Position numbers and translations under genes: made by a program
NCBI GenBank assembly: GCA_017624025.1
Contig: JAGANY010000016.1
Location: 49,717 to 113,716 of the forward strand
Direction of reading: 5' to 3'
DNA length: 64,000 nucleotides
Origin: Ruminiclostridium sp.
Lineage (GTDB): Bacteria > Bacillota > Clostridia > Oscillospirales > Ruminococcaceae
Shown: in pieces, positions 4,390-17,669 of the stretch
How positions within the stretch are numbered: position 1 is the first letter of the stretch
Layout of the letters: every line of letters starts with the position of its first letter
The notes under the pieces: generated by a model
Seen by the model: the letters and a program-made list of their open reading frames with translations, nothing else
Told to the model about the DNA's origin: nothing
Database searches by the model: none

Positions 4390-5379
4390 ATGGCAGTTAT
4401 TTATTGTCCCCAGTGTGACAGTGAAATTCCCGAAAAGGTAGCTATCTGTCCGAGCTGTGGCTTTAATCTTGATACATACGCTGAGGAAGAGCAGGACGAA
4501 CAGTTTAACAGCCTTCTTAATGCGGCAAACAAAAAGCTCAGTGAAGACAACGGAGAAGCCGCTCCCGAAGGAGAAAAGAGTAATTCCACTATTTCACAGA
4601 GTCAGATTGACGCACTTCTCGGAGGAAATATTGTTGACCTTTCGGGAAGCGGAAAGCCAAAGAAAACTGTAAAAAAAGAATCGGAAAAGCCTCCCGTAAG
4701 CAAGATTGCAGAGGAAAAGCCTCTTGAAAAAGAGAAAGCGGAAGAAAAGTCTCCCGAAGCTGCTGAAACAGCAGTAAAAGAAGCTGTGGAAGAGACAGAA
4801 ACGTTTGAAGCTGCTCCGGCTGTATCTGCTCCCGCTGCAAAGAAAAGCGGCAATATTTCAGCAATTGTTACTGTTGCGGCGGTAGTTGTCGCACTTGCTT
4901 TAGGTTTTTGCATTTCGCTTTTAATGTTTGGTAACGTTATAAAAACCCCCGAAGAATCCTTCGCTATAAAAGCGGCGAATGCTGTAAACAGCAAGCTCAG
5001 CGTTAATGAAAATCTCTGTGTTTATAAGGCTTATGTAAAGCTCGGTGCGGCTTCGGACGAATGCATTATTTATGCAATAACCGACTATAAGGATACTGTT
5101 TCCGCATCAAAATACCGTGTTGTAATAAATAAAGAAGACGAAAACATAATAAACATATACTATACTGTTGACGAAAACAGTGCGGAATATCTTGCTATGA
5201 AAAACAGCGAGGATCCCGAGGTTCGTATCCAGGCAAGCGTTTTAAAGAACTATTCCGATTCTATCGAAGACGCACACCGTGAAATCTCTATCGGAACTCC
5301 GTCCTGGAAAAGCGTTGATATTTCTACAATCAACAGCAATATTACGTCCAGACCAACAAAGAATACTGCTGAGGAATAA
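4390..5379 (+). CDS. Zinc-ribbon single-pass membrane protein
   Basis: A 329-aa protein of unknown role. Residues 6-23 form a zinc ribbon (CPQCDSEIPEKVAICPSCG). A charged, low-complexity region rich in Glu, Lys and Ala follows, then one transmembrane helix near residues 155-180 (AIVTVAAVVVALALGFCISLL) and an extracytoplasmic domain of about 145 residues. Near residue 69 the segment SQSQIDALLGG resembles the LSQ-x-x-IDALL peptide at the N-terminus of FliM, which binds CheY; whether that matters here is unknown. The next gene begins 24 bases downstream and is probably co-transcribed. Confidence 0.75.
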   Translation: MAVIYCPQCDSEIPEKVAICPSCGFNLDTYAEEEQDEQFNSLLNAANKKLSEDNGEAAPEGEKSNSTISQSQIDALLGGNIVDLSGSGKPKKTVKKESEKPPVSKIAEEKPLEKEKAEEKSPEAAETAVKEAVEETETFEAAPAVSAPAAKKSGNISAIVTVAAVVVALALGFCISLLMFGNVIKTPEESFAIKAANAVNSKLSVNENLCVYKAYVKLGAASDECIIYAITDYKDTVSASKYRVVINKEDENIINIYYTVDENSAEYLAMKNSEDPEVRIQASVLKNYSDSIEDAHREISIGTPSWKSVDISTINSNITSRPTKNTAEE

Positions 5380-5403
5380 GCAGGCTTTCGGGGAGGAAAT
5401 ACA

Positions 5404-6144
5404 TTGAATATTTTTGCGGTTTACAGCCTGCCTCAGCTTTTATTTCTGTTCTATCTTTTCTGTAATATAGGCTGGGTCATAGAATCAACGGTAGAGACCC
5501 TTTACCGTAAAAGCTTCATAAACAGAGGCTTTTTAAAAGGTCCGTATATACCGATTTACGGTTTTGGCGGTGTGACAATACTTGTGTGTTGTATGCCCTT
5601 TAACGAGAACGGCTTTCTCGTTTATCTTGTAGGTGTTCTTTCCTGTACGACCCTCGAATATTTCGTGGGCTGGGTTATGGAATCTATTTTCCAGAAGCAG
5701 TTCTGGGACTACAGTATGCTTAAATTCACCTATAAGAACCGTATATCCCTTATTCCGTCCCTTTTCTGGGGACTTCTGTCGCTGTTTATGGTCTATATCC
5801 TTTATGATATAGTTGATGCAGTGGTAAACTTTATACCTTTGAATTTCGTAGCAATCTATGATATAGTTTTCTCGCTTATTATGGCTGTGGATATTTTTAT
5901 AAGCGTTTCAAGTCATATCCACTTCAAGGAATATCTCAAGAAATTCCCTGCAGAAAAGGCGAAGAAGCTTTTAAGAAACAAGTACATACGCCTCGGCGGT
6001 GAGGTTATTAAACGCCGACAGAGAAGAATTGTGCGTATGTTCGAACGGTTAAGATCGGAAATACTCGATAATGATGATGATTGGTTCGAGGAATTTCCCG
6101 AAATGGAAGACGAGAGAGAGGAAAAAGAATCCGCAAAGGAGTAA
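5404..6144 (+). CDS. CmpB-like membrane protein (putative ABC transporter type IV family)
   Basis: A 246-aa membrane protein with about five hydrophobic segments and a basic then acidic cytoplasmic tail (RRQRRIVRMFERLR, ending in EEKESAKE). The N-terminal run FCNIGWVIESTVETL and KGPYIPIYGFGG match what I know of the CmpB family (PF06541), widespread in Clostridia and of unproven function. The start is TTG at 5404: GGAGG at 5392-5396 is spaced 7 bases from it and no ATG is near. It sits in a probable operon with the zinc-ribbon gene upstream and the HD gene 7 bases downstream. Confidence 0.8.
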   Translation: MNIFAVYSLPQLLFLFYLFCNIGWVIESTVETLYRKSFINRGFLKGPYIPIYGFGGVTILVCCMPFNENGFLVYLVGVLSCTTLEYFVGWVMESIFQKQFWDYSMLKFTYKNRISLIPSLFWGLLSLFMVYILYDIVDAVVNFIPLNFVAIYDIVFSLIMAVDIFISVSSHIHFKEYLKKFPAEKAKKLLRNKYIRLGGEVIKRRQRRIVRMFERLRSEILDNDDDWFEEFPEMEDEREEKESAKE

Positions 6145-6151
6145 TCTCTTT

Positions 6152-6838
6152 ATGAAGAATAATCCCGAGTTTCAGAAAGCAGTCTCCACGGTACTTGACA
6201 GTAAAAATCTCCAGCTTACAAAAACCTTTACCCAGCACGGGAATGTATCCGTTTTTGCCCACTCTATGGCTGTGGCGGCATACAGCAAGATGCTGGCTGA
6301 TAAGCTTAAGCTTAAATATGACAGCGAAAGCCTCGTAAGAGGGGCAATGCTTCACGATTTCTTTCTTTACGACTGGCACGAGACATCAAATATCGGCGAC
6401 GGTCTTCACGGCTTTGCTCATCCTTATACTGCTTCTAAAAACGCAATCCGTGAATTTAAGCTTAGTCCCCGTGAGCTTGATATAATAAGAAAGCATATGT
6501 GGCCGCTTACCTTTACGAAGCTTCCGAAATACCGTGAAAGCTGGCTTGTGTGTGCGGTAGATAAGTATTGTTCGGTTCTTGAGACCTTTAAGCTCAACAA
6601 GTACAACGATTTCAGCTTCGTAAACCCGAAGCTTATAAAGAAGCTTCAGCAGGAAAGAGAGCTTAATCTTCGTCTCGAAGAAGGCAAGGGAAAGCTTAAG
6701 GAGTATATCCACCGTACGAACGAAGAAGCTGCTGAAAAGCAGAAGGAAGCAAGAAAAAAGATTTCCGAATTAAGAAAAAACAACAATCAGCCAAAGAATA
6801 TTAGCAGATATGAGCAGTATAAAGCAAGAAAAGGTTAA
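6152..6838 (+). CDS. HD-domain phosphohydrolase
   Basis: A 228-aa cytosolic metal-dependent phosphohydrolase of the HD superfamily; the substrate is not known. The metal-binding pattern is visible: His in FAHSMAVAAYS, then GAMLHDFFLYDWH with the paired His-Asp, later HGFAHPYTASKNA and KHMWPL, and a distal Asp in AVDKYCSV. The C-terminal ~60 residues are basic and helical. I take ATG 6152, preceded by AAGGAG at 6136-6141 (10-base spacing); a longer frame back to 6071 would overlap the upstream gene and has no better site. Confidence 0.85.
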   Translation: MKNNPEFQKAVSTVLDSKNLQLTKTFTQHGNVSVFAHSMAVAAYSKMLADKLKLKYDSESLVRGAMLHDFFLYDWHETSNIGDGLHGFAHPYTASKNAIREFKLSPRELDIIRKHMWPLTFTKLPKYRESWLVCAVDKYCSVLETFKLNKYNDFSFVNPKLIKKLQQERELNLRLEEGKGKLKEYIHRTNEEAAEKQKEARKKISELRKNNNQPKNISRYEQYKARKG

Positions 6839-6855
6839 AAATCCAACATTTTCTA

Positions 6856-6884
6856 TTGACAATACGCTATTACTGTGATACAAT
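6856..6884 (+). promoter_or_regulatory. Promoter of metK leader
   Basis: TTGACA (6856-6861), 17-base spacer, TACAAT (6879-6884). Transcription would begin just before the riboswitch aptamer. Confidence 0.8.
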
Positions 6885-6901
6885 TACAAAGTAAACAAAA
6901 A

Positions 6902-7046
6902 GTCCTTATCAAGAGCAGCGGAGGAACAGGTCCTGTGAAGCTGCGGCAACCGTTCGGAAACGAAAATGGTGCCAATTCCTGCGTCGAAAGACGGAAGATG
7001 AGGGAGTACGAAAAAATTACGGCTCCCATAATAGGGAGCTTTTTTG
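6902..7046 (+). ncRNA. SAM-I (S-box) riboswitch with terminator
   Basis: The leader holds the S-box core elements in order: CTTATCAAGAG (6905-6915), GGAGG-AACAGG-TCCTGTGAAG, GCGGCAACC (6943-6951), a variable stem, GGTGCCAATTCCTGC (6968-6982) and the closing GATGAGGGA. An intrinsic terminator follows, stem GCTCCC (7022-7027) / GGGAGC (7034-7039) with a T-run. By the known mechanism, S-adenosylmethionine binding favours the terminator and shuts off metK, the enzyme that makes it. Confidence 0.93.
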
Positions 7047-7086
7047 TTTAGAATAAAACCAATAAAAAAGAAAGGAACAAAGAAAA

Positions 7087-8262
7087 ATGGCAAAATTTTT
7101 ATTTACCTCTGAAAGCGTTACAGAAGGACATCCCGATAAAATCTGTGACAGAATTTCCGACAGCGTTTTAGACGCACTTTTAGCACAGGACCCTATGTCC
7201 CGTGTAGCTTGCGAAACCTGCACAACAACAGGTCTCGTTATGGTTATGGGCGAAATTACAACAAAGGCTGTAATTGATATCCCTGCTATTGTTCGTGAAA
7301 CAGTACGCGAAATCGGTTATGACAATGCTGAATACGGTTTCGACTGCAACACCTGTGCAGTTATGACAACTCTCGATAAGCAGTCCCCCGATATCGCTAT
7401 GGGCGTTGACAACGCTCTCGAAGGCAGAGAAGAAAACGCTATGGATACAGGTGCAGGCGACCAGGGTATGATGTTCGGTTACGCTTGTACAGAAACTCCC
7501 GAGCTTATGCCTCTTCCTATCTCTCTTGCACAGAAGCTTGCAAAGAAGCTTACAGACGTAAGAAAGAGCAGCGAACTCGATTATCTCCTTCCCGACGGTA
7601 AGTCCCAGGTTACAGTTGAATATGATGACGGAAAGCCCGTAAGAGTTGATACAGTAGTTATCTCCTCTCAGCATAAGGCTTCCGCAACTCTCGAACAGAT
7701 CCGTAAGGATGTAATCGAAAAGATCATCAAGACAACAATCCCCGCAAATCTCCTCGATGAAAATACAAAGTACTATGTAAACCCCACAGGCCGTTTCGTT
7801 GTAGGCGGACCTCAGGGCGACAGCGGTCTTACAGGCCGTAAGATAATCGTTGATACATACGGCGGTTACGCAAGACACGGCGGCGGTGCTTTCTCCGGTA
7901 AGGACCCGACAAAGGTTGACCGTTCCGCTGCTTACGCTGCAAGATATGTAGCTAAGAATATCGTAGCAGCAGGTCTCGCTGAAAAGTGTGAAGTTGAACT
8001 TGCTTACGCAATCGGCGTAGCTAAGCCCGTTTCCGTATTCGTTGATACTTTCGGTACAGGTAAGGTAGGCGACGATAAGATCAGCGAAGCAGTAAACAAG
8101 GTATTTGACCTCCGTCCCGCTGCTATCATCTCCACTCTCGAACTCAGAAAGCCCCAGTATAAGGAGCTTTCCGCATACGGCCACATGGGTAGAGAAGAAC
8201 TCGGCGTAGCATGGGAAAAGACAGACAAGGTTGACGCTCTTAAGGCAGCAATCAACGGCTGA
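7087..8262 (+). CDS. metK: S-adenosylmethionine synthetase
   Basis: Makes S-adenosylmethionine from methionine and ATP. The 391 residues match the usual family length. Visible landmarks are the N-terminal [16 protein letters not shown] with the ATP-contacting His, [12 protein letters not shown] near residue 121 (the ATP-motif hexapeptide region), [18 protein letters not shown], and the Gly-rich loop [18 protein letters not shown] with catalytic Lys and Asp. Its only neighbour in the transcript is the SAM-I riboswitch, giving product feedback. Downstream lies the three-hairpin repeat rather than a simple terminator. Confidence 0.98.
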
Positions 8263-8270
8263 TTATAAAA

Positions 8271-8523
8271 ATATCCGTAAGGGTATCGTTTTTATAGAAA
8301 CAGTATAAGTATTTATCGGGAGAAACCTTTCTGAAGAAAGGCTTTCTCCCGAACCCACTTCCAAAGACTTTTAATATAAATTCAAGACCCACAGGATTAC
8401 TCTGTGGGTCTTGAATTTAAACTGAAAGTTTTCGGAAGGGAGTATGAGGGAAATCCCTTTTTCAAAAGGGTTTCCCTCAATAATACCCGTACTGATTTTA
8501 AAGAAATGATACCTTTACAGGAT
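8271..8523. repeat. Three-hairpin repeat, copy 1, inside outer inverted repeat
   Basis: Core about 8304-8488, inverted relative to the copies at 14839 and 17443. It holds the hairpin GGGAGAAACCTTTC/GAAAGGCTTTCTCCC, the central hairpin AAGACCCACAG/CTGTGGGTCTT and the hairpin GAGGGAAA-CCC/GGG-TTTCCCTC. Outside the core, ATCCGTAAGGGTATC (8273-8287) pairs imperfectly with GATACCTTTACAGGAT (8508-8523), forming a locus-specific outer stem between metK and a possible minus-strand small gene. A 67-codon frame at 8404-8607 is a by-product of the repeat and is not called. Confidence 0.8.
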
Positions 8524-8636
8524 TATCTTTGCGAGGATGAAACGGGGGCTTTGAAGTATTCGCCGTATCCGAGACTGTCGGCATTAACGCTTGAAACAGG
8601 TTTCTGAACAGCTGAGGTTGTTTGTGTTTTTAACAT
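8523..8636 (-). CDS. Possible 37-aa peptide (uncertain)
   Basis: ATG at 8636 to TAA at 8523 reads MLKTQTTSAVQKPVSS followed by VNADSLGYGEYFKAPVSSSQ and R. No strong ribosome site precedes it (a loose AAGAAAAGAAAG lies about 25 bases away) and I recognise no family. It is listed because it would make the repeat-bearing outer stem at 8271-8523 a terminator between convergent genes, as at the other two copies. It may be chance. Confidence 0.25.
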   Translation of the reverse strand: MLKTQTTSAVQKPVSSVNADSLGYGEYFKAPVSSSQR

Positions 8637-8694
8637 ATATAAGCTGTTATGTCAAATATATCCGCTTTCTTTTCTTGTTTATATTGTTAATCTA

Positions 8695-8723
8695 TTGACA
8701 AACAATGTCTTAAATTGTATAAT
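8695..8723 (+). promoter_or_regulatory. Promoter of the secreted Fn3 protein
   Basis: TTGACA (8695-8700), 17-base spacer, TATAAT (8718-8723): full consensus. Confidence 0.8.
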
Positions 8724-8754
8724 ATAATAAAATATATATTTGGGGGGATTCTTT

Positions 8755-9534
8755 ATGAAAAGAATTATTAGTGTATTTCTTAGCGTAATTATGCTGATCT
8801 CCGTTATCAGCATACCTGCTTCGGCAGCAAGTTATTTCGAGCTTTACGATGACGGCGAGCTTTACACAACTGATTCATTCTATGATGATGTTGCTATGTG
8901 CCGTGCAAGTGCAAACAAGGTAGATCTTACCAGTGGTAAGAAGATAACGGACCAGGTTTTTTCAAAAAACCTCAGCGAAGTTCGCAGCGTAAACTTTGCA
9001 GGTTATGAGTTCACACTCAAGAAAAAGGATAAGGTAACCTTTAAGTTCTATGCAAACGAAAAGTTTATTTCTGATTGTGTAGCAATTTATATCTTCAACG
9101 ATGACCACGAATTCTTCTATGAAGGCGGATTTGAAAGAAAATCGAGAAAGTCCCCCAAGACCTTTAAGGATTCCATCACTCTTTCAAAGGGTACATACTA
9201 CTTATTCTTTGCTACAAAGACAAACAAGAATGTTGACTTTGATTTAACTATCTCCGCTCCCAAGCACAAGGAAACAAAGCCTACTTTCTCTGTAAAGGCA
9301 AAGGGCGACGGAAAGGTAAAGATTTCCTGGAAGGAAGTTCCCGGTGCTACAAAGTATAAGGTTTACAAGTATTCAAGCGGTAAGTTCAAGGCTATCAAGA
9401 CCACAACAAAGACATCCTATACAATTAAGAACCTTGTAAAGAACAACAAGTATTCTTACGTTGTTACAGCCTATGTAAACGGAAAATGGACATCGACATC
9501 CGTTGATGATATTAAGAGCGTTACAGTAAAATAA
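8755..9534 (+). CDS. Secreted protein with C-terminal fibronectin type III domain
   Basis: A 259-aa exported protein. Residues 1-25 are a signal peptide (MKRIISVFLSVIMLIS, cleavage likely after PASA). The middle ~140 residues look like a beta-rich pre-peptidase-type domain (VTFKFYANEK, KGTYYLFFATKTNKNVDFDLTI), by inference. The last ~85 residues are an Fn3 module with WKEVPGATKYKVYKYSSGKF and YSYVVTAYVNGKW, closely like the modules of the giant protein at the right end of the window. ATG 8755 follows TGGGGGGATTCTTT; an in-frame TTG at 8740 lies at the edge of the ribosome site itself. A terminator follows, so it is monocistronic. Confidence 0.8.
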   Translation: MKRIISVFLSVIMLISVISIPASAASYFELYDDGELYTTDSFYDDVAMCRASANKVDLTSGKKITDQVFSKNLSEVRSVNFAGYEFTLKKKDKVTFKFYANEKFISDCVAIYIFNDDHEFFYEGGFERKSRKSPKTFKDSITLSKGTYYLFFATKTNKNVDFDLTISAPKHKETKPTFSVKAKGDGKVKISWKEVPGATKYKVYKYSSGKFKAIKTTTKTSYTIKNLVKNNKYSYVVTAYVNGKWTSTSVDDIKSVTVK

Positions 9535-9541
9535 AATACAT

Positions 9542-9573
9542 AAAAAGAAGCAGATGATTTCTGCTTCTTTTTT
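9542..9573 (+). terminator. Terminator after secreted Fn3 protein
   Basis: Stem AGAAGCAGA / TCTGCTTCT with a five-base loop, A-run before and T-run after. Confidence 0.85.
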
Positions 9574-9608
9574 GTTATATTTTATACTGTTTTATATGTC
9601 GTTTTATG

Positions 9609-9637
9609 TTGACAAAACGGGCTCATTATGGTAAAAT
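9609..9637 (+). promoter_or_regulatory. Promoter of purL
   Basis: TTGACA (9609-9614), 17-base spacer, TAAAAT (9632-9637). The ~70-base leader has a small GCGG-AAAA-CCGC hairpin but no purine riboswitch core. Confidence 0.75.
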
Positions 9638-9710
9638 TAATGTGATATTTTGTGCGGAAAACCGCTGAAAAATAATATTTCTTGTTGTAGAACGAGAGAA
9701 AGGACTGTTT

Positions 9711-12700
9711 ATGTCAGTTTATCGTATTTATGTTGAAAAGAAGCCGCAGTATGCGGTAGAGGGCGAGGCTGCTTTATCTGACCTCAGAACCTCTCTTCGA
9801 ATCGAGGGCGTCGAAGGCGTAAGAATTGTAAACCGTTATGACGTTGAAGGTATTTCTGAAGAAAACCTCAACCGTTCAATTCCTACCGTTTTCTCCGAAC
9901 CCCCTGTTGACGATGTATATTATAATCTCCCCGAAATCGGCGAGGGCGAACGTATGTTTGCGGTAGAATTCCTCCCCGGTCAGTTCGACCAGAGAGCTGA
10001 TAGTGCCGCACAGTGTATCCAGATGCTCTGTCAGGGCGACCAGCCTGCTGTAAAGTACGCAAAGATCTATATCTTAAGCGGAAAGATAAGCGATGAAGAA
10101 TTCGCTAAGATAAAGCACTATCTCATCAACGCCGTTGAATCGAGAGAATGCGGCTACGAAGAATATAAGACATTAAAGACCGAATATGACATTCCTACCG
10201 AGGTTGCTGTTTTAGACGGCTTCCTTGACCTTGACGAAAATGGTCTTGCTGAATTTGTAAAGAGCTACGGCCTTGCTATGGATAACGGCGACATCAAGTT
10301 CTGTCAGGATTATTTCAAGACAGAAAACCGTAATCCTACAATTACCGAAATCCGTATGATTGATACATACTGGTCTGACCACTGCCGTCATACTACTTTC
10401 GGTACAATTATCGATAAGGCTGATATCGAAGCAGATTATATCGCTGAAACATATAAGGAATATAAGGTAAACCGCGAAGAACTCGGCAGAGGAAACAAGC
10501 CCGTATGCCTTATGGATATTGCAACCTTAGCCGCTAAGAAGCTTAAGGCTGACGGTCTTATGCCCGACCTCGACGAAAGCGAAGAAATCAATGCCTGCTC
10601 CGTTAAGATTACCGTTGATGTTGACGGTAAGGACGAAGAGTGGCTCCTTATGTTCAAGAACGAAACACATAACCATCCTACAGAAATCGAACCCTTCGGC
10701 GGTGCGGCTACCTGTCTCGGCGGTGCTATCCGTGACCCCCTTTCCGGCCGTGCTTATGTTTACCAGGCTATGCGTGTAACAGGTGCAAGCGATCCGCTTC
10801 TTCCTGTTTCTGAAACAATCGAAGGTAAATTACCCCCCAGAAAGATTACTACTACTGCTGCTGCCGGTTACTCCTCCTACGGTAACCAGATCGGTCTTGC
10901 AACAGGCCACGTAGCAGAGCTTTACCACCCCGGATATATGGCTAAGCGTATGGAAATCGGTGCAGTTATTGCTGCTGCTCCCGCTGACCACGTAAGACGT
11001 GAAAGACCCGCTCCCGGCGACGTTATCGTTCTCCTCGGCGGACGTACAGGCCGTGACGGATGCGGCGGTGCGACAGGTTCTTCCAAGTCCCACAGCGTAG
11101 CTTCACTTGAATCCTGCGGTGCAGAAGTACAGAAGGGTAATGCTCCTATCGAAAGAAAGCTTCAGCGTTTATTCAGAAAGCGTGAAGCTACAACCTTAAT
11201 AAAGAGATGTAATGACTTTGGTGCAGGCGGTGTATCCGTTGCTATCGGCGAGCTTGCTGACGGTCTTACTATCGACCTTAACGCTGTTCCGAAGAAGTAC
11301 GACGGCCTCGACGGTACAGAACTCGCTATCTCCGAATCCCAGGAAAGAATGGCAGTAGTTGTAGATAAGAACGATGTTGAAAAGTTCATTGAGCTTGCAG
11401 GCATCGAAAACCTCGAAGCTACTCCCGTAGCAGTTGTTGAAGCTGAACCCAGACTCAGAATGAACTGGAACGGTAAGACAATCTGTGATATTTCCCGTGA
11501 ATTTTTAAACTCCAACGGTGCTGAAAAGCATACAGAAATCGCTGTTCCTGCTCCTTCTGTTTCCTATAAGACAGAATACAAGAACACAGCTGAAGACTGG
11601 GAAAAGCTCGCAACAGACCTTAACGTATGCTCACAGAGAGCACTCGTTCAGCGTTTCGACTCTACAGTAGGTGCTGCAACAGTTCTTATGCCTTTTGCAG
11701 GTAAGACACAGCAGACTCCTGTACAGGCTATGGCTGCAAAGATTCCTGTTCTTGACGCTAAGACAACAACAGCTTCCCTTATGGGCTGGGGTTATAACCC
11801 TGCTGTTGCAGTACAGTCTCCTTACCACAGTGCTATGCTGGCTGTAATCGAATCTATCGCAAAGATTGTTGCAGCAGGCGGTTCTGCTAAGAAGTGCTGG
11901 CTCACATTCCAGGAATATTTCGAAAGAACACAGGGTACTCCCTCACGTTGGGGCAAGCCCTTCAGTGCACTCCTCGGTGCATATAAGGCACAGCTCGAAC
12001 TCGGCTGCGGTGCTATCGGCGGTAAGGACTCTATGAGCGGTACCTTCGAAGATATCGACGTACCTCCCACACTCGTTTCCTTCGCTGTTTCCACAGCTAA
12101 GGCTGACAAGATTATTTCCGCTGAATTCAAGTGTCCTTTCAGCAAGATTTATATCATCAAGCCTAAGTACGATGAAAATATGCTCCCCGATTTTGACAGC
12201 GTAAAGGACGTATTTGCAAAGGTAGAAAAGGCAATTGCTGACGGAAAGGCTCTTTCTGTATGGTCTTACGCTAACGGCGGTCTTGCTGAAGGTATCTTTA
12301 AGATGTCTCTCGGTAACCGTATCGGTGCAAAGCTCAACAAGCTTTCCGACGATGAACTCTTCTCTCTCTGCTACGGTGCATTCATCATCGAAGCAAACGA
12401 AGAAATCGAAGGTGCAGAGCTTATCGGTGAAACAATCGAAGAATACAAGATCTACAGCGGTGACGTTGTTATTGATATGGAAGCCCTCGAAAAGAAGTGG
12501 GACAGCGTTCTCGAACCTATCTTCAAGGACAGCGTAAAGGCTATGCCTGCTCCCGAAAAGATAAGCTATAAGGAAGGCTGTAAGATTTCCTGTGCACCCG
12601 CTAACAAGATTGCAAAGCCCCGTGTACTTATTCCTGCATTCCCCGGTACAAACGGTGAATACGATATGGCTGATGCGTTCAACCGTTACGGCGGTATCTC

Positions 12701-13412
12701 TACACAGTTCGTAATCCGTAACCTTGATGCAAAGGCTATGGAAGAATCTGTTGACGCATTCGCTGAGCTTATCAAGCAGAGCCAGATTATTGCTGTTCCC
12801 GGCGGTTTCAGTGGCGGTGACGAACCCGAAGGCTCCGGTAAGTTCATTAACGCTTTCTTCCGCAACCCGAAGGTTAAGGAAGCAGTTCACGAAATGCTCT
12901 ATAAGAGAGACGGTCTTATGCTCGGTATCTGTAACGGTTTCCAGGCTCTTATCAAGCTCGGTCTCGTACCCTTCGGCGAAATCGTTCCGCTTACAGAAGA
13001 AAGTCCTACTCTTACATTCAACACAATCGGCAGACACCAGTCCCAGCTTGTCAACACAAGAATCTGTACAGACAAGACTCCCTGGCTTATGCACTGCAAG
13101 GTTGATGAAATCTATACTATCCCGATTTCTCATGGTGAAGGCCGTTTCGTAGCAAGCGACGAGGTTATCCGTAAGCTTATCGAAAACGGACAGGTTGCTA
13201 CACAGTATGTTGACCTTAACGGCAATCCTACAATGGATTTACGTTACAACCCCAACAGCTCTATGTACGCTATCGAAGGTATTATCTCTCCCGACGGCCG
13301 TGTATTCGGTAAGATGGGTCACAGCGAGCGTATCTCTGATAACTGCTGTGTAAATGTTGACGGTAAGAAGGAACAGCCTATGTTCAAGGGCGGTATCGAC
13401 TACTTCAGCTAA
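9711..13412 (+). CDS. purL: Phosphoribosylformylglycinamidine synthase, single chain
   Basis: Fourth step of de novo purine synthesis: FGAR, glutamine and ATP give FGAM. At 1233 aa it fuses the N-terminal PurS-like part, two ATP-grasp-like synthetase halves and a C-terminal glutaminase, whereas bacilli use separate PurS, PurL and PurQ. Landmarks: DTYWSDHCRHTTF near residue 220, FKNETHNHPTEIEPFGGAAT near 317, then the glutaminase oxyanion loop PGGFSGGDEPEG near 1030, the nucleophile Cys in GICNGFQ near 1071 and the His-Glu pair in SHGEGRF near 1140. It resembles the clostridial class (TIGR01857 type). It stands alone with its own promoter and terminator, without other pur genes. Confidence 0.96.
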   Translation: MSVYRIYVEKKPQYAVEGEAALSDLRTSLRIEGVEGVRIVNRYDVEGISEENLNRSIPTVFSEPPVDDVYYNLPEIGEGERMFAVEFLPGQFDQRADSAAQCIQMLCQGDQPAVKYAKIYILSGKISDEEFAKIKHYLINAVESRECGYEEYKTLKTEYDIPTEVAVLDGFLDLDENGLAEFVKSYGLAMDNGDIKFCQDYFKTENRNPTITEIRMIDTYWSDHCRHTTFGTIIDKADIEADYIAETYKEYKVNREELGRGNKPVCLMDIATLAAKKLKADGLMPDLDESEEINACSVKITVDVDGKDEEWLLMFKNETHNHPTEIEPFGGAATCLGGAIRDPLSGRAYVYQAMRVTGASDPLLPVSETIEGKLPPRKITTTAAAGYSSYGNQIGLATGHVAELYHPGYMAKRMEIGAVIAAAPADHVRRERPAPGDVIVLLGGRTGRDGCGGATGSSKSHSVASLESCGAEVQKGNAPIERKLQRLFRKREATTLIKRCNDFGAGGVSVAIGELADGLTIDLNAVPKKYDGLDGTELAISESQERMAVVVDKNDVEKFIELAGIENLEATPVAVVEAEPRLRMNWNGKTICDISREFLNSNGAEKHTEIAVPAPSVSYKTEYKNTAEDWEKLATDLNVCSQRALVQRFDSTVGAATVLMPFAGKTQQTPVQAMAAKIPVLDAKTTTASLMGWGYNPAVAVQSPYHSAMLAVIESIAKIVAAGGSAKKCWLTFQEYFERTQGTPSRWGKPFSALLGAYKAQLELGCGAIGGKDSMSGTFEDIDVPPTLVSFAVSTAKADKIISAEFKCPFSKIYIIKPKYDENMLPDFDSVKDVFAKVEKAIADGKALSVWSYANGGLAEGIFKMSLGNRIGAKLNKLSDDELFSLCYGAFIIEANEEIEGAELIGETIEEYKIYSGDVVIDMEALEKKWDSVLEPIFKDSVKAMPAPEKISYKEGCKISCAPANKIAKPRVLIPAFPGTNGEYDMADAFNRYGGISTQFVIRNLDAKAMEESVDAFAELIKQSQIIAVPGGFSGGDEPEGSGKFINAFFRNPKVKEAVHEMLYKRDGLMLGICNGFQALIKLGLVPFGEIVPLTEESPTLTFNTIGRHQSQLVNTRICTDKTPWLMHCKVDEIYTIPISHGEGRFVASDEVIRKLIENGQVATQYVDLNGNPTMDLRYNPNSSMYAIEGIISPDGRVFGKMGHSERISDNCCVNVDGKKEQPMFKGGIDYFS

Positions 13413-13422
13413 TAAAAAAACT

Positions 13423-13455
13423 AAAACCTGCATTGGCTATGCCTTTGCAGGTTTT
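13423..13455 (+). terminator. Terminator after purL
   Basis: Stem AAAACCTGCA (13423-13432) / TGCAGGTTTT (13446-13455). The ribosome site of the next gene follows at once, so some read-through is plausible. Confidence 0.75.
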
Positions 13456-13472
13456 AAAAATAGGAGTACAGT

Positions 13473-14336
13473 ATGAAATTCGCAAAACGTTATTTCAGCA
13501 AGGCAATAAAGAGTATGAAGGTTGAAAGCTGGGGCTTTGTTATAAAATTTATGGCAATTGTTGCCTTTGTGCTCGGTATTCCGTGTATGTTTATCGGAGG
13601 CTTCAAGCTTACTGACCTGCTTATACCGGTAATTGCTTCTGCTAGTGCAGCGTTGGTTGTAATACTGCTTCCGTATGTGGTTACGATTATTTATAATCTT
13701 CGTTATTATAGATTTTACTCTCTTTTTAACCGTAAAGGGTATTCTCCCGAGCTTCTCGATAAGGTTAAAAATATGAAGGAAAAATATATCCACAATAAAG
13801 CATTTTATAAGCTTGAGCTTGCGAATATTTATCGTAATGTCGGAGAGTTCGACGAAACGATGAAGCTTTTTGCGGAGCTTGATTCCGAGGACTTGGGTGA
13901 CAGAAGAGTGTTATACATCTATTACTATCTTCTTCTCGCTCTCCAGATGGAGAATACTGAGCTTTTTGATATGCTGATTCACGAAAACAGGGATTTACTT
14001 AAGACTGATACTGAAAATGAAAAGAAAAGCATTAACGGTGCGGTTTCTCATCTTTGTATCCGTGCGGAGTGCATAAAAGGGAATTATGAAAAGGCTCTAG
14101 AAATGTGTAAGTACCAGTATGAAAATAACATCTGGACAGGGGTATGTTTAAATATCCTCTTTACCTATGTGCTTACTATGAACGGAAAAACAGAGTATGC
14201 GTCTGAGATTTATGAAGTGGCAAAAAAATCTATAGAGGAAACGAAATGTGAATATGATTTCGAGAAGCCTGTTTTTTTGAAGAAGCTTGAAAAGGCATTG
14301 AACGGCGAATTGACATTACCATATACACAGATTTAA
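13473..14336 (+). CDS. Membrane-anchored protein with helical repeat domain, unknown
   Basis: A 287-aa protein I do not recognise. Two hydrophobic segments lie near residues 22-45 (FVIKFMAIVAFVLGIPCMF) and 50-77, followed by a ~200-residue soluble helical region with a TPR-like rhythm (FYKLELANIYRNVGEFDETM and ALEMCKYQYENNIWTGVCLN). TPR-type scaffolding is inference. GGAG precedes the ATG by 7 bases. The next gene starts 20 bases downstream, so the two are likely co-transcribed. Confidence 0.7.
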   Translation: MKFAKRYFSKAIKSMKVESWGFVIKFMAIVAFVLGIPCMFIGGFKLTDLLIPVIASASAALVVILLPYVVTIIYNLRYYRFYSLFNRKGYSPELLDKVKNMKEKYIHNKAFYKLELANIYRNVGEFDETMKLFAELDSEDLGDRRVLYIYYYLLLALQMENTELFDMLIHENRDLLKTDTENEKKSINGAVSHLCIRAECIKGNYEKALEMCKYQYENNIWTGVCLNILFTYVLTMNGKTEYASEIYEVAKKSIEETKCEYDFEKPVFLKKLEKALNGELTLPYTQI

Positions 14337-14356
14337 TATAGTAAGGAGAAAAAATT

Positions 14357-14785
14357 ATGACGGCAGAAGAAATAGCAGAGAAAATTTTTTGTGTTTTCGT
14401 AATACTTACAGGTGTATTTTTCATAGGTCTTGCAATATACAATATCGTAAGAGACGGAAATAAAAAGAACTGGAAAAAGACTACAGCAAAGGTTATCGGA
14501 AGACATCACTATTCAACTCCTAATCCCCCTTCTAAGACGAGAGCCAGACCTGCCTATAGGGAAGGCTATGAAAAAGAGATAACTTATACTGTAAACGGAA
14601 AGAGCTATAATAAGTACGTGGATGACAAGTATGACGGAAGCTTTGAAATTTACTATAACGTAAAAAAACCGGATTATTTCAGAATTGCAGATGAGTTCGT
14701 TCCCGGTAAAAACAGCAAAGCCTCTTTATTCGTTGCGGTTTTCGGCACCATCGGCTTAATATTGATATTCGTCGTAGCTGACTAA
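14357..14785 (+). CDS. DUF3592-like membrane protein
   Basis: A 142-aa protein with two membrane helices, near residues 10-30 (FCVFVILTGVFFIGLAIYNI) and the C-terminal 20 residues (SLFVAVFGTIGLILIFVV), enclosing a beta-rich loop. The loop pattern WKKTTAKVIGR, ITYTVNGKSYNKYV and IYYNVKKPDYFRI resembles DUF3592, whose function is unknown. AAGGAGAAAAAATT precedes the ATG. It follows the TPR-like gene in a probable two-gene unit ending at the three-hairpin repeat. Confidence 0.7.
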   Translation: MTAEEIAEKIFCVFVILTGVFFIGLAIYNIVRDGNKKNWKKTTAKVIGRHHYSTPNPPSKTRARPAYREGYEKEITYTVNGKSYNKYVDDKYDGSFEIYYNVKKPDYFRIADEFVPGKNSKASLFVAVFGTIGLILIFVVAD

Positions 14786-14793
14786 GAGCAATC

Positions 14794-15060
14794 AAAAAGG
14801 CAGTCAGTTTGCTGTCCTTATATAGAAATATTCACAGGTGTTATTGAGGGAAACCCTTTTGAAAAAGGGCTTTCCCTCATACTCCCTTCCGAAAACTTTC
14901 AGTTTAAATTTAAGACCCACAGGGTAAATACCCTGTGGGTCTTAAATTTATATTAAAAGTCTTTGGAAGAGGGTTCGGGAGAAAGCCTTTCTTCAGAAAG
15001 GTTTCTCCCGATAATACTTATAAATACTTCTAAAAAGACAGCAGACTGACTGCCTTTTTT
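14794..15060. repeat. Three-hairpin repeat, copy 2, inside a split terminator
   Basis: Core about 14839-15022 with three hairpins: GAGGGAAACCC-TTTTGAA-AAGGG(C)TTTCCCTC, a central stem AAGACCCACAGGGTA/TACCCTGTGGGTCTT, and GGGAGAAAGCCTTTC/GAAAGGTTTCTCCC. It is flanked by AAAAAGGCAGTCAGTTTGCT (from 14794) and AGCAGACTGACTGCCTTTTT (to about 15059), which pair with one mismatch and end in a T-run on both strands. These outer arms look like a bidirectional terminator whose loop holds the repeat, between convergent genes. Confidence 0.85.
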
Positions 15061-15065
15061 ATTGA

Positions 15066-15431
15066 TTAAATGCCGAAGAGCTTTATGAACTTTTGTTCAT
15101 TGTAAGCCTCTTTTAACAGGTTTTTAAGCTCCCATATTTCTGAAATCCCTTCTGGAGTATCAGGGGATAGCTCCGAGGGGGCTGTCCTTAAGATTTCCGC
15201 AAATTCCTTACAGGTCTCGGGCGGAATAAGGTTGATGCCTGTCCATTCTATAGTATCGCTCTCAATATCGAGAGTATGAAGATAAAGCCTTCCTTTTAAA
15301 AGATGAATATAAGGTTCAAAATAATCGTCTGTGACAGAAACAAGTCTTCTGAAGCTTTCGGGGTCATATTCATCATAACGAACGCCTTTTTCTGGTGCAG
15401 TATCCATAATGCCGAATTCGTATCTTGACAT
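15066..15431 (-). CDS. Hypothetical protein, 121 aa
   Basis: I do not recognise this acidic, probably cytosolic protein. It has no signal peptide or membrane helix; visible features are FGIMDTAPEKGVRYDEYDPE near the N-terminus, a helix-rich centre, and SPDTPEGISEIWELKNLLKE near the C-terminus. GAGGGA precedes the ATG by 7 bases and a full-consensus promoter lies upstream, so the gene should be expressed. It is alone on its strand, converging on the membrane-protein pair across repeat copy 2. Confidence 0.7.
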   Translation of the reverse strand: MSRYEFGIMDTAPEKGVRYDEYDPESFRRLVSVTDDYFEPYIHLLKGRLYLHTLDIESDTIEWTGINLIPPETCKEFAEILRTAPSELSPDTPEGISEIWELKNLLKEAYNEQKFIKLFGI

Positions 15432-15459
15432 AATTATCCCTCGCTTTCATAGTTTTATG

Positions 15460-15488
15460 ATTATATCATTCTTTTGTGACGGTGTCAA
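15460..15488 (-). promoter_or_regulatory. Promoter of the 121-aa hypothetical gene
   Basis: Minus strand TTGACA (15488-15483), 17-base spacer, TATAAT (15465-15460): full consensus. Confidence 0.8.
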
Positions 15489-15527
15489 TTTAATTATGAT
15501 AATTTGTTAAAAATCGGTAAAAAACTA

Positions 15528-15556
15528 TTGATTTTTGAATATTGTTTTGTTATAAT
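15528..15556 (+). promoter_or_regulatory. Promoter of fucI
   Basis: TTGATT (15528-15533), 17-base spacer, TATAAT (15551-15556). Confidence 0.7.
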
Positions 15557-15622
15557 AATATATGGATTTATGTAATCGTTTTTATATGATTGCAGAATAA
15601 AGATATGAAAGGAAATTTGAAT

Positions 15623-17398
15623 ATGTTAGCAAAAATTGGTATCAGACCCGTAATTGACGGCAGACAGTTCGGCATAAGAGAGAGCCTCGAGGTTCAGACT
15701 ATGGAGCTTGCTAAAATTGCGGCAGAATTTATTACAAAGAATGTACGCCACGCAAGCGGAGAGCCTGTAGAATGTGTTATTGCAGACAGCACAATAGGTG
15801 GTATTGCTGAAAGTGCAGCCTGCCGTGAGAAATTCTCAAAGGAAAACGTTGTTGCAACTCTTACTGTTTCTCCCTGCTGGTGTTATGTAACACAGGTTAT
15901 CGACGAAGACCCGAATACAATCAAGGCTGTATGGGGCTTTAACGGTACAGAACGCCCCGGTGCTGTTTTCCTTGCAGCAGCTATGTCTGCTTACGCACAG
16001 AACGGAATGCCTTGCTTCTCTATCTACGGCCACGATGTAAAGGATATCGGCGATAAGGAAATTCCCGAAGACGTTGCTGAAAAGATTTTACGTTTCGCTA
16101 AGTGTGCAACAGCTATCGGCGATATAAGAGCAAAGAGCTATGTAAATATCGGTGCGGTTTCTATGGGTATTGCCGGTTCATACTGCAACGAAGACTTCTT
16201 CCGTTCATATCTCGGTATGCACGTTGAATGGGTAGATATGTCCGAAATTATCCGCCGTGAAAAGCTTGGTATTTATGACGAGGAAGAGTATGAAAAGGCT
16301 CTTGCCTGGATAAAGGAAAACTGTAAGGAAGGTATGGATGTTAACCCCACACCCGGTATGTTCTATCAGAGAACACACCTTACTGACGAAGAAAAGGAAG
16401 AAAACTGGAAGTTTATCGCTAAGATGACCTGTATCTTTATGGATATTATGCACGGTAACGATAAGCTCGAGGCTAAGGGCTGGCTCGAGGAGGCTAAGGG
16501 CAAGAACGCTATCTTAGGCGGTTTCCAGGGACAGAGAAACTGGACAGACTTTATGCCTAATGCAGATTTCAGCGAAGCTATCCTTAACTCTACATTCGAC
16601 TGGAACGGAAAGCGTGAGCCTATTCCTTTCGCAACCGAAAATGACGGCCTTAACGGCGTAACATTACTTTTACTCCACCAGCTTACAAATAAAGCGGCAA
16701 TTTTTGCTGACGTAAGAACCTACTGGTCTCCTGCAGCAGTGGAAAGAGTTACCGGCTGGAAGCCCGAAGGCGTTGCAGAAAACGGCTTTATTCATATGAT
16801 AAACAGCGGTGCTGCTGCTCTCGACGGTACAGGTGCGGTTAAGGACGAAGACGGCGAAAGAGTTATGAAGGAATGGTGGGATATGACCGATTCCGACATA
16901 AAGGCTTGCCTCAATGATACAAAGTGGTGCTGTGCAAACCTCGGATATTTCAGAGGCGGCGGATTCTCCTCAAGCTTCTCCACAAAGGGTATTATGCCTT
17001 GCACTTTCGCAAGAGTAAACTACGTAAAGAACTTAGGCCCCACAATCCAGATTGTTGAAGGCTATACAGTAGAGCTTCCCGAAGACGTTAACAAGAAGCT
17101 TCTCGACAGAACCGATCCTACCTGGCCTTCTACCTGGTTCGCTCCTATCTGTAACAACGAAGCCTGCAAGGATGTTTACACAGTAATGGCTAACTGGGGT
17201 GCAAACCACGGTGCGTTCGTTTACGGTCACGTTGGCGATGACCTTATCACATTAGCGTCTATGCTCCGTATCCCTGTATCGCTGCATAACGTTGCAGAGG
17301 GCAGAATCTTCCGTCCTCACGCTTGGACAGCATTCGGTACACAGGACATAGAAGGTGCCGACTACAGAGCTTGTGCAGCTTACGGAAGTCTTTATTAA
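15623..17398 (+). CDS. fucI: L-fucose isomerase
   Basis: Converts L-fucose to L-fuculose (and related aldoses) using Mn2+. From ATG 15623 the product is 591 aa, the same length as E. coli FucI; AAAGGA at 15608-15613 supports this start over an in-frame TTG at 15590. Landmarks: IGIRPVIDGRQFGIRESLE at the N-terminus, TVSPCWCYVTQVID, FNGTERPGAVFLAAAMSAY, MHVEWVDMSEIIRR, ATENDGLNGVTLLLLHQL with the metal-binding Asp, and GHVGDDLITLASMLRIP. It stands alone: no fucK, fucA or fucose transporter is in the window, so the rest of the pathway must lie elsewhere. Confidence 0.93.
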   Translation: MLAKIGIRPVIDGRQFGIRESLEVQTMELAKIAAEFITKNVRHASGEPVECVIADSTIGGIAESAACREKFSKENVVATLTVSPCWCYVTQVIDEDPNTIKAVWGFNGTERPGAVFLAAAMSAYAQNGMPCFSIYGHDVKDIGDKEIPEDVAEKILRFAKCATAIGDIRAKSYVNIGAVSMGIAGSYCNEDFFRSYLGMHVEWVDMSEIIRREKLGIYDEEEYEKALAWIKENCKEGMDVNPTPGMFYQRTHLTDEEKEENWKFIAKMTCIFMDIMHGNDKLEAKGWLEEAKGKNAILGGFQGQRNWTDFMPNADFSEAILNSTFDWNGKREPIPFATENDGLNGVTLLLLHQLTNKAAIFADVRTYWSPAAVERVTGWKPEGVAENGFIHMINSGAAALDGTGAVKDEDGERVMKEWWDMTDSDIKACLNDTKWCCANLGYFRGGGFSSSFSTKGIMPCTFARVNYVKNLGPTIQIVEGYTVELPEDVNKKLLDRTDPTWPSTWFAPICNNEACKDVYTVMANWGANHGAFVYGHVGDDLITLASMLRIPVSLHNVAEGRIFRPHAWTAFGTQDIEGADYRACAAYGSLY

Positions 17399-17400
17399 AA

Positions 17401-17667
17401 TAGAGCAGCCCTTAAGGGTAGTGCTTATATAAAAATGTTTATGAGTATTACCGAGGGAAACCCTTTTGTAAAAGGGCTTTCCCTCGAGCTCCCTTCCGAA
17501 AACTTTCAGTTTAAATTCAAGACCCACAGGGTAATACCCTGTGGGTCTTGAATTTATATTAAAAGTCTTTGGAAGAGGGTACGGGAGAAAGCCTTTCTTC
17601 AGAAAGGTTTCTCCCGATAAATACATATAACACTTCTATATAAGCACTACCCTTAAGGGCTGCTCTA
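17401..17667. repeat. Three-hairpin repeat, copy 3, inside a perfect 31-bp outer inverted repeat
   Basis: Core about 17443-17627 with the same three hairpins as copy 2 and the same orientation. The outer arms 17401-17431 (starting TAGAGCAGCCCTTAAGGGTA) and 17637-17667 (ending CCCTTAAGGGCTGCTCTA) are exact reverse complements over 31 bases and are unrelated to the arms of copies 1 and 2. It sits between convergent fucI and the 108-aa gene. A 124-codon minus-strand frame at 17252-17626 arises from the repeat and fucI antisense and is not called. Confidence 0.88.
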
Positions 17668-17669
17668 TG

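Follow-up and report, generated by a model that had tools for sequence, protein, structure and literature searches.

A short, multi-copy repeat without shared coding sequence and with a highly folded structure was found in the window, i.e. the whole 64-kb stretch of DNA analysed, and in related genomes of Ruminococcus-type gut bacteria. We give an even chance to the reading that this nested palindrome lives in the loops of mostly bidirectional intrinsic terminators and has spread by entering those loops, which suggests that gene stop signals serve as docking points at which one folded repeat comes to lie within another.

Layout and distribution of the repeat

The window contains three copies of a core of about 165 bp composed of three hairpins (hp1 to hp3) and an inner stem, and in each copy the core is flanked on both sides by conserved inverted ends, with site-specific outer arms beyond them. 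Copies and flanks were located to within a few bases of where the initial annotation had placed them. As had been described, copy 1 has the opposite orientation and an imperfect outer stem: the left arm (8265-8297) begins directly after the stop codon of the gene identified by Pfam as metK and pairs imperfectly with the right arm (8503-8531), while the element between them (8298-8502, minus strand) carries the conserved inverted ends, hp3 (8316-8352), hp2 (8378-8418) and hp1 (8445-8479). Copy 2 consists of a left outer arm with an A-tract, forming one terminator half (14793-14816), the conserved left inverted end (14817-14844, plus strand), the core (14845-15011, plus strand; hp1 14845-14879, inner stem 14882-14902 with 14955-14973, hp2 14906-14949, hp3 14975-15011), the conserved right inverted end (15012-15036, plus strand) and a right outer arm ending in a T-tract, the other terminator half (15037-15064). 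The complementarity claimed for these arms holds over 34 nt (14789-14822 and 15031-15064) at 88%. In copy 3 the outer arms (17400-17431 and 17637-17668) form a perfect stem of 32 bp, for which 31 bp had been reported, around the conserved ends and core (17432-17636, plus strand; hp1 17452-17486, inner stem 17489-17509 with 17561-17579, hp2 17513-17555, hp3 17581-17616).

An inverted-repeat search of the 64 kb (exact seed of 12 nt, arms of at least 18 nt, at most 400 nt apart) returned copies 2 and 3 as the sole inverted repeats whose arms are separated by over 20 nt. Folded as RNA and as DNA, copy 3 lies about 20 SD below shuffled sequences. The three nested hairpins of the initial annotation are present, but the inner stem, a fourth conserved stem, had been overlooked, and with it the core is a four-way junction. 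Among open reading frames of at least 80 codons, one crosses copy 3 (17252-17626, minus strand), while copies 1 and 2 are free of them.

Searching with a module pattern yielded 77 module matches in the genome of the window (G000, a metagenome-assembled genome 58% complete) and 52 in G022, with no match of the reversed control pattern in either. The repeat design is present in 19 of the 71 genomes of the genus and also in named R. flavefaciens genomes, and the cores of 35 G000 copies share a mean pairwise identity of 0.93. Carriage by phages or plasmids was dropped as an explanation, since neither of the two collections searched matched the repeat; four IMG/VR stretches match the module pattern. 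In Rfam 15 no family reached its gathering score at the elements, the only family found in the window being a SAM riboswitch away from them, and a known Rfam structured RNA was likewise dropped, as the matches to copies 2 and 3 in an E-value search all stayed below threshold. No description of this repeat was found in the titles and abstract beginnings of the open-access PubMed Central literature.

Outer arms at gene ends

The initial annotation had set each core between complementary arms unique to its site. As a control, the left arm of one copy was paired with the right arm of another, and own arms paired far better than swapped ones in G000, G022, G009 and the named-record loci. The mean pairing was 23.2 against 9.7 for swaps in G000 (n=35, 19 copies above the swaps' 99th percentile), 22.1 against 9.2 in G022 (n=27, 18 above) and 29.7 against 8.2 in G009 (n=3, all three above). 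In this comparison, from which copies with short flanks were excluded, the core pattern missed 16 loci, including 5/43 of G000 (L007, L015, L023, L030 and L120 in G000, L142 and L158 in G022, L097-L103 in G009, L105 and L106 in G035). Among the named loci (83 module matches in 80 loci, 34 of them unscored for lack of a nearby hp1 or for lying at a locus end), 31 of 35 copies outscored every swap of their own. A second scoring of G000 placed 21 of the 35 copies above the 95th percentile of swaps; the arms of the other 14 fall below it, i.e. are weak or decayed, which counts against loop insertion. The claim that the core occupies the loop of a terminator-like stem is supported for the majority of tested copies in every set.

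Outward profiles from the conserved inverted ends, which flank the core on both sides over about 25-30 bp, were taken over 34 G000 and 27 G022 copies. At positions -10 to -18 conservation between copies is near nil (at most 0.24 bit per column), yet in a 9-nt window this zone is paired at 0.66-0.71 in G000 and 0.71-0.76 in G022, compared with 0.46-0.51 for swapped arms. Further out the sequence turns A-rich (on the right side T-rich), and at around -30 the excess of pairing is lost. In these 34 and 27 copies the arms fit the intrinsic terminator test, with a stem, a following T-tract and a preceding A-tract as in the bidirectional type. In sequence terms, the outer arms look like a bidirectional intrinsic terminator, with an A-tract, a stem of about 9-10 bp and a T-tract, near stop codons.

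The elements lie downstream of genes, as had been noted initially, with ORF ends converging on them from both sides in 30/34 G000 and 19/27 G022 copies. In G000, 34 of 68 stop ends are found 15-30 nt beyond the conserved ends, and in G022 29 of 49; the remaining ones are mostly nearer to the element, some inside the conserved ends. In a pooled set of 58 two-sided copies, 25 have stop-to-core distances that differ by no more than 3 nt from one side to the other, compared with 15% of swaps, and arm complementarity largely ends at coding sequence. In the nested form in G060 (L092) the terminator is found in the innermost loop rather than outside, which counts against loop insertion.

Orthologous sites with and without the element

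Element-free orthologous sites were identified for window sites 1 and 2 in G022, for L004 and L153 in G004 and for site 3 in G094. All five usable sites, located at gene ends, carry a plain terminator hairpin with a small loop, and because of this the placement of the core in a terminator loop is supported; the G094 case is less clean and weak, its left gene being just 72% identical. The empty and filled genomes are separate species in all these comparisons, which counts against loop insertion; the DNA identity is 84-90% next to window sites 1 and 2, 71-72% at the L004 site and 79-86% at the L153 site. Insertion into the terminator loop, as opposed to mere location there, is likely. The clearest case is window site 2 (L001), at which the convergent genes are orthologous (protein identity 40% and 45%), and the empty site in G022 has 18-bp arms and a 3-nt loop. 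Of 34 G000 copies, the arms of this very site match the empty hairpin best (42, next 34.5).

Intact small-loop terminators are thus present at empty orthologous sites, as the initial annotation had looked for, and its interpretation as a whole is partly supported. When the empty sites were ranked by arms alone, L001 came 1st of 34, L013 22nd of 34, L004 34th of 34 and L153 9th of 26, so the filled copy ranked first for only one of the four ranked sites (the G094 site is unranked), which counts against loop insertion; filled and empty arms are recognisably alike only at window site 2. Clear first ranks for L008 and L122 were dropped, as the 36-nt flanks compared had included more than the arms. 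With arms alone L122 ranks 17th of 34, while L008 is narrowly the best of 34 G000 copies (40, next 38). The restriction to arms thus weakened L008, removed L122 and strengthened L001, and our confidence in loop insertion was accordingly lowered to even.

We also searched with the flanks of 12 G000 sites in G022 and G004, and found one empty site (L004 in G004), two at which a different insert lies framed by palindromes (L008 and L122 in G022) and one whose flanks are 1.5 kb apart (L132 in G004). The flanks of 12 G022 sites, searched in G000 and G004, gave one empty site (L153 in G004) and one with 1.5 kb between the flanks (L148 in G004). A comparison of G005 with G029 gave no clean empty site, all six sites being common to both. 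The L008 site is occupied in G022 by another nested palindrome, set between the arms that match L008 best. At this orthologous gene end the palindromes enclosed by terminator-like arms therefore differ between the two sister species.

Without any loop insertion, selection on a transcribed structure at the 3' end, acting in mRNA stability or in termination on both strands, could maintain outer stems, core and hp2, with arms that co-evolved with the core. Such an RNA structure or super-terminator accords with the position at 3' ends of convergent genes, with two-sided pair-keeping changes at 19 of 57 consensus pairs, many in the central hairpin (17 hand-picked copies from seven genomes), and with a covariance model that scores both strands well, e.g. 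169.9 and 138.5 bits at one place. However, the core is common to the sites, as its high identity in G000 indicates, while the arms are private, and orthologous sites without the core in sister species still have a plain terminator; we consider this explanation unlikely.

A well-kept site has three layers: the outer layer is what looks like the gene's own terminator (A-tract, private stem of about 9-10 bp, T-tract), the middle layer the conserved inverted ends of about 25-30 bp and the innermost layer the four-way-junction core. If the repeat does enter terminator loops, copies would reach new sites by way of a hairpin loop, which is single-stranded in both DNA and RNA, without target duplication. 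The outer stem would re-form around the insert, so that termination may persist and the insert may be tolerated.

Origin of the arms and mode of movement

Cores and arms change between orthologs. The core is inverted at sites 1 and 4 of G005, G029 and G094 (two of six shared sites) and also at L027/L143 and L003/L146 (of four pairs read). Exchange of cores between sites is shown by sequence identity in one case, the core of L051 being 98.9% identical over 183 nt to that of another site in a sister species. Site 3 differs between G005 and G029 by a coupled two-base change in both arms, and at site 4 in G029 arm changes go toward the partner arm; sites 1, 2 and 4 also have changes in the opposite sense. 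The alternative offered in the initial annotation, that the outer stems co-evolved with the core, is partly right, as the core flips and the single coupled change indicate. In G009, the L098 site has as its left arm the 3' end of the coding sequence of a RemA-like gene, of which the right arm is an inverted copy (20/21); the empty relatives G018 and G030 keep the coding sequence and lack the reverse copy, and the apparent own terminator of the RemA-like gene persists further downstream. Here one arm is copied coding DNA rather than half of an old hairpin, which counts against loop insertion. The core flips and the L098 arm fit template switching, a known mechanism.

The core inversions, the coupled change, the changes toward the partner arm and the L098 site favour fold-back copying, in which the element would land beside a gene end or terminator and template switching in replication across its own inverted ends would copy one flank reversed to the other side. 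The outer stem would then be made after insertion and kept perfect by repeated homogenisation, and the core would be inverted likewise. According to published work (PMC8604942, PMC8794818), template switching between inverted repeats leaves homogenised arms and an inverted spacer. The repeat here shows spacer inversion and, in single cases (sites 3 and 4 and the L098 site), arms that became more alike; the excerpted text of these reports describes the process for short inverted repeats and RNA stems and contains no dispersed bacterial repeat family. Furthermore, some single arms fold on themselves like whole terminators (28% of 69 G000 and 24% of 54 G022 arms, p<0.1), the left arm of window site 1 resembles by eye the whole G022 terminator, and arms differ at most ranked pairs of empty and filled sites, as expected of newly made arms. 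Copying of coding sequence into non-coding DNA should, however, be free, yet complementarity stops there in copies with a gene on one side. In 33 such copies complementarity into the coding sequence is 0.545, compared with 0.537 for swaps, and reaches at least 0.8 in none, compared with 4.1% of swaps. Two-sided copies show a small excess (0.680, SE 0.017, against 0.642 in a 15-nt window; at least 0.85 in 8/56 against 6.4% of swaps). Because coding-sequence copying is thus unseen in one-sided copies and at most slight in two-sided ones, the template-switch model lost first place. The changes away from the partner arm, the lack of correlation between arm score and core divergence (Spearman -0.10, p=0.58) and the full terminator of empty G022 at window site 2, which resembles the G000 arms, also speak against fold-back copying, which we regard as a serious possibility, less probable than entry into terminator loops.

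The initial annotation had proposed a MITE-like mobile element, and the repeat shares with MITEs its small size, high copy number, terminal inverted repeats and absence of a shared ORF. Moreover, REP palindromes are known targets of some insertion sequences (IS1397, ISKpn1, IS621; PMC1525189). It is nevertheless highly improbable that the repeat is an ordinary MITE mobilised by a DDE or Y1 enzyme that favours palindromic targets. No direct target repeat of 3-10 bp beside the ends was clearly above swaps (best excess 0.05 in 34 G000 and 0.10 in 27 G022 copies, the exact outer boundary being uncertain). PF01797 (IS200-type Y1 transposase), the family searched, gave no match in G022, which is 99% complete and rich in module matches, and is absent from G035, G005 and G094, which also hold copies; one each was found in G000, G009 and G011 and an interrupted one in G029. 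Mobilisation by IS200/RAYT was dropped, as G022 lacks a PF01797 match. In the 80 named loci a strict pattern search covering 6 kb on the upstream side of module B met no gene-carrying version, the one distant module A lying 368 bp away.

Returning to loop insertion, a wider version is tentative and rather doubtful: terminator loops might be a common docking address for several unrelated gene-free palindrome families, entered at the hairpin tip without target duplication. Inserts would dock further palindromes, turning terminators into nested dolls, and movement would be directed by nucleic-acid shape rather than sequence, with no dedicated transposase inside the element.

Group IIC introns use terminators as targets. 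They integrate beside a DNA stem-loop (PMC10190682) and thus recognise a structured DNA target, as the repeat would, but they have a ribozyme and a maturase and insert beside the stem, according to the excerpted source, whereas no intron or other Rfam family reaches threshold here. With IS1397, ISKpn1 and IS621 the repeat would share a palindrome that serves as address of a mobile element; as excerpted, those insertion sequences carry a transposase, whereas the repeat is a palindrome in which no gene was found and its site is a gene-private terminator-like stem. In Volvox carteri organelle genomes, palindromes inserted within palindromes form larger composite intergenic hairpins (PMC2670323), a similar nesting in intergenic DNA; these are organellar, average 50 nt and lack a four-way-junction core, and the excerpted text does not describe terminator-loop placement at convergent bacterial genes. 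REP/BIME and other bacterial palindromic interspersed repeats are similarly non-coding, extragenic, present in many copies and folded into hairpins, but REPs measure 20-40 bp in the excerpted sources (PMC2817692, PMC3733652), compared with about 230-250 bp and private outer stems here. REPs associated with RAYT are defined, following PMC3733652, by such a unit bearing a GTAG/CGTC tag.

If loop insertion is real, gene terminators would be safe harbours for mobile DNA, which would be targeting structure instead of sequence. With dozens of copies in a genome, arms private to each, inverted cores and sister species free of the core, the family offers a natural experiment on the origin of long perfect stems, whether from pre-existing terminators, template switching or selection, and either answer bears on the evolution of bidirectional terminators and long RNA stems.

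Anatomy and distribution of the nested palindrome

The three copies found in the window (copy 1, 8298-8502, inverted; copy 2, 14817-15036; copy 3, 17432-17636) belong to one non-coding element, and the window itself lies in a 1.6-Mb, 58%-complete MAG (genome G000). From the outside inwards the element consists of site-private outer arms, conserved inverted ends some 25-30 bp long, a first hairpin (hp1), an inner stem, a second hairpin (hp2) seated in the inner-stem loop and a third hairpin (hp3), with the outer stem, hp1, inner stem and hp3 forming a four-way junction. As RNA and as DNA alike, the fold of copy 3 is more stable than those of its dinucleotide shuffles by about 20 SD. The hp2 sequence varies while its base pairs are kept, and the core almost equals its own reverse complement, a covariance model scoring 169.9 and 138.5 bits on the two strands at one place. 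Two loci of a relative (L105 and L106 in G035) carry an extra hairpin (CGTACT..AGTAC) between inner stem and hp3, at the identical point in both copies, which is a palindrome within a palindrome. At locus L092 of genome G060 the innermost loop holds a terminator-like hairpin and the outer arms are arrays of CTCGAGCGCAAGCGACC-like repeats; the nesting order there is reversed relative to the other copies.

Searching the genome and its relatives, as the initial annotation had proposed, yielded 77 matches to module B, the searched part of the element, in G000 and 52 in the copy-rich relative G022, and none in either genome with the reversed pattern. With its own genome counted, the element was found by blastn in 9 of 60 genomes, all of one genus, and by a covariance model with strict filters in 19 of 71 genomes of the genus. 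A scan of genome contigs gave at least 104 stretches with a module match. Among the 80 of these that were listed are R. flavefaciens Y1, MA2007, YL228, YAD2003, YRD2003 and MC2020, Ruminococcus sp. YE71 and R. albus KH2T6, as well as MAGs labelled Desulfovibrio, delta-proteobacteria and Planctomycetota (loci L253, L260, L277 and L305). Beside the match, L253, L260 and L277 have only the module B half (module B with hp3), and L305 has, by eye, an apparently full element; these loci may reflect a wide distribution or misbinning of the MAGs. Several contigs of G000 and G022 terminate in or beside a copy (e.g. G022:C50:1, C53:2, C16:6), so the copy numbers are perhaps underestimated, as assemblies break at the repeat.

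Private outer arms at gene ends

The placement of nested-hairpin copies between complementary arms unique to each site was confirmed, and two comparisons speak against a chance arrangement. When the entire window was searched for inverted repeats (12-nt exact seed, arms of at least 18 nt, at most 400 nt apart), outer arms separated by more than 20 nt emerged for copies 2 and 3 only. In the second, arms of the same copy were compared with swaps, in which the left arm of one copy is paired with the right arm of another; 16 submitted loci had no core-pattern match and hence were not scored. True arms surpassed swaps in G000 (23.2 versus 9.7 over 35 copies, of which 19 exceeded the 99th percentile of swaps), G022 (22.1 versus 9.2; n = 27, 18 above) and the relative G009 (29.7 versus 8.2; n = 3, all above). 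The complementarity of the flanks extends genome-wide, although by a second score 21 of the 35 G000 copies lay above the 95th percentile of swaps and 14 below. The 80 listed loci from named records contain 83 module matches, of which 49 have hp1 nearby; after leaving out loci of G005, G022 and G029 and short-flank copies, 35 were scored, 31 of them above every swap of their own.

Positions -10 to -18 outward of the conserved ends show near-zero conservation between copies (34 in G000, 27 in G022), and their paired fraction is 0.66-0.71 in G000 and 0.71-0.76 in G022 versus 0.46-0.51 in swaps. Farther out, the left side is A-rich and the right side T-rich, and the pairing excess stops near -30. 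Convergent ORF ends flank 30/34 G000 and 19/27 G022 copies on both sides, and 34/68 and 29/49 stop ends, respectively, fall 15-30 nt beyond the conserved ends. Under a stricter length cut-off for ORFs, 98 pooled copies comprised 58 that were two-sided, 36 one-sided and 4 neither; in 25 of the 58 the two stop distances were within 3 nt of each other, versus 15% of swaps. In the window, the genes flanking copies 2 and 3 are convergent, while copy 1 lies 3' of metK, with the following ORF in the same direction; a SAM riboswitch (6903-7004, plus strand, 89.5 bits) precedes metK. Our own scan of the window counted 93 ordinary terminator-like hairpins, with a median arm of 10. Judged from the private paired zone, the A-rich and T-rich stretches and the converging ORF ends, the arms have the shape of putative bidirectional intrinsic terminators.

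Orthologous sites without the element

G022 is collinear with window positions 5000-17400, with blocks adjoining window sites 1 and 2 (those of copies 1 and 2) about 84-90% identical, and has no element at either site. At window site 2 the plain hairpin between the orthologous convergent genes (40% and 45% identical at the protein level) has 18-bp arms and a loop of 3 nt; the hairpin at window site 1 has 12-bp arms. Plain hairpins also occupy the L004 and L153 sites in G004, and site 3 in G094, where the left gene is only 72% identical. A simple, intact terminator was thus present in 5/5 empty sites at gene ends, and the earlier proposal that the element occupies the loop of a terminator-like stem was supported in this part; its MITE-like reading failed the target-duplication test. 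Dependence on a RAYT fails in G022, where a search for PF01797, the one transposase family checked, gave no match.

When empty sites were ranked on arms alone, the filled copy of window site 2 (L001) came first of 34 G000 copies (score 42, next 34.5), that of window site 1 (L013) 22nd of 34, L004 34th of 34 and L153 9th of 26 G022 copies. At the L008 site G022 has a different palindrome of two tandem units in place of the element, flanked by terminator-like arms that match L008 best among 34 by a narrow margin (40, next 38). The L122 site in G022 holds another palindrome-framed insert, and L122 ranked 17th of 34 on arms alone. The clear first ranks obtained with longer flanks (L008 68, next 46; L122 36, next 29) were overstated, as the arms-only ranking showed. 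The palindrome at the L008 site belongs to a second family (TTAATCCCGCC..CTGCGGGATTA units, ATAGAAG-like ends), seen at L224, close to where the L008 orthologue lies in G022; its signature also occurs in L199, L070, L174, L067, L213, L235, L236, L353 and L370; it is absent from the window.

Core inversion, possible fold-back copying and loop occupancy

G005, G029 and G094 have six sites in common, and at two of them the core of one species has the opposite orientation: that of G005 at site 1 and that of G094 at site 4. Between G000 and G022, the pairs L027/L143 and L003/L146 are inverted and L125/L135 and L128/L144 keep the same orientation. Over 183 nt, the L051 core shares 98.9% identity with a core at another site in a sister species. 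Locus L064 of G022 has the flank of one G000 copy (L012) on one side and of another (L022) on the other, so genome rearrangement between copies happened in one lineage.

Arm homogenisation with spacer inversion is described as the signature of template switching (PMC8604942, PMC8794818), and such fold-back copying could be a maintenance process or the origin of some arms. The trace expected from it occurs in G009 (L098:1268-1900), where the final codons of a RemA-like gene, whose Pfam match falls short of the cut-off, together with three bases make up the left arm, and the right arm is the inverse copy of this arm (20/21). In G018 and G030, two relatives that lack the element, the coding sequence is retained but the reverse copy is missing. 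The gene's apparent own terminator persists downstream at L098. In general, however, complementarity stays out of coding sequence in 33 one-sided copies (0.545 versus 0.537 in swaps), and two-sided copies show only a slight excess into it (0.680, SE 0.017, versus 0.642 in swaps). Because this general copying test failed, we prefer loop occupancy and place template switching closely behind it. The element appears to work like a palindrome docking in the loops of terminators.
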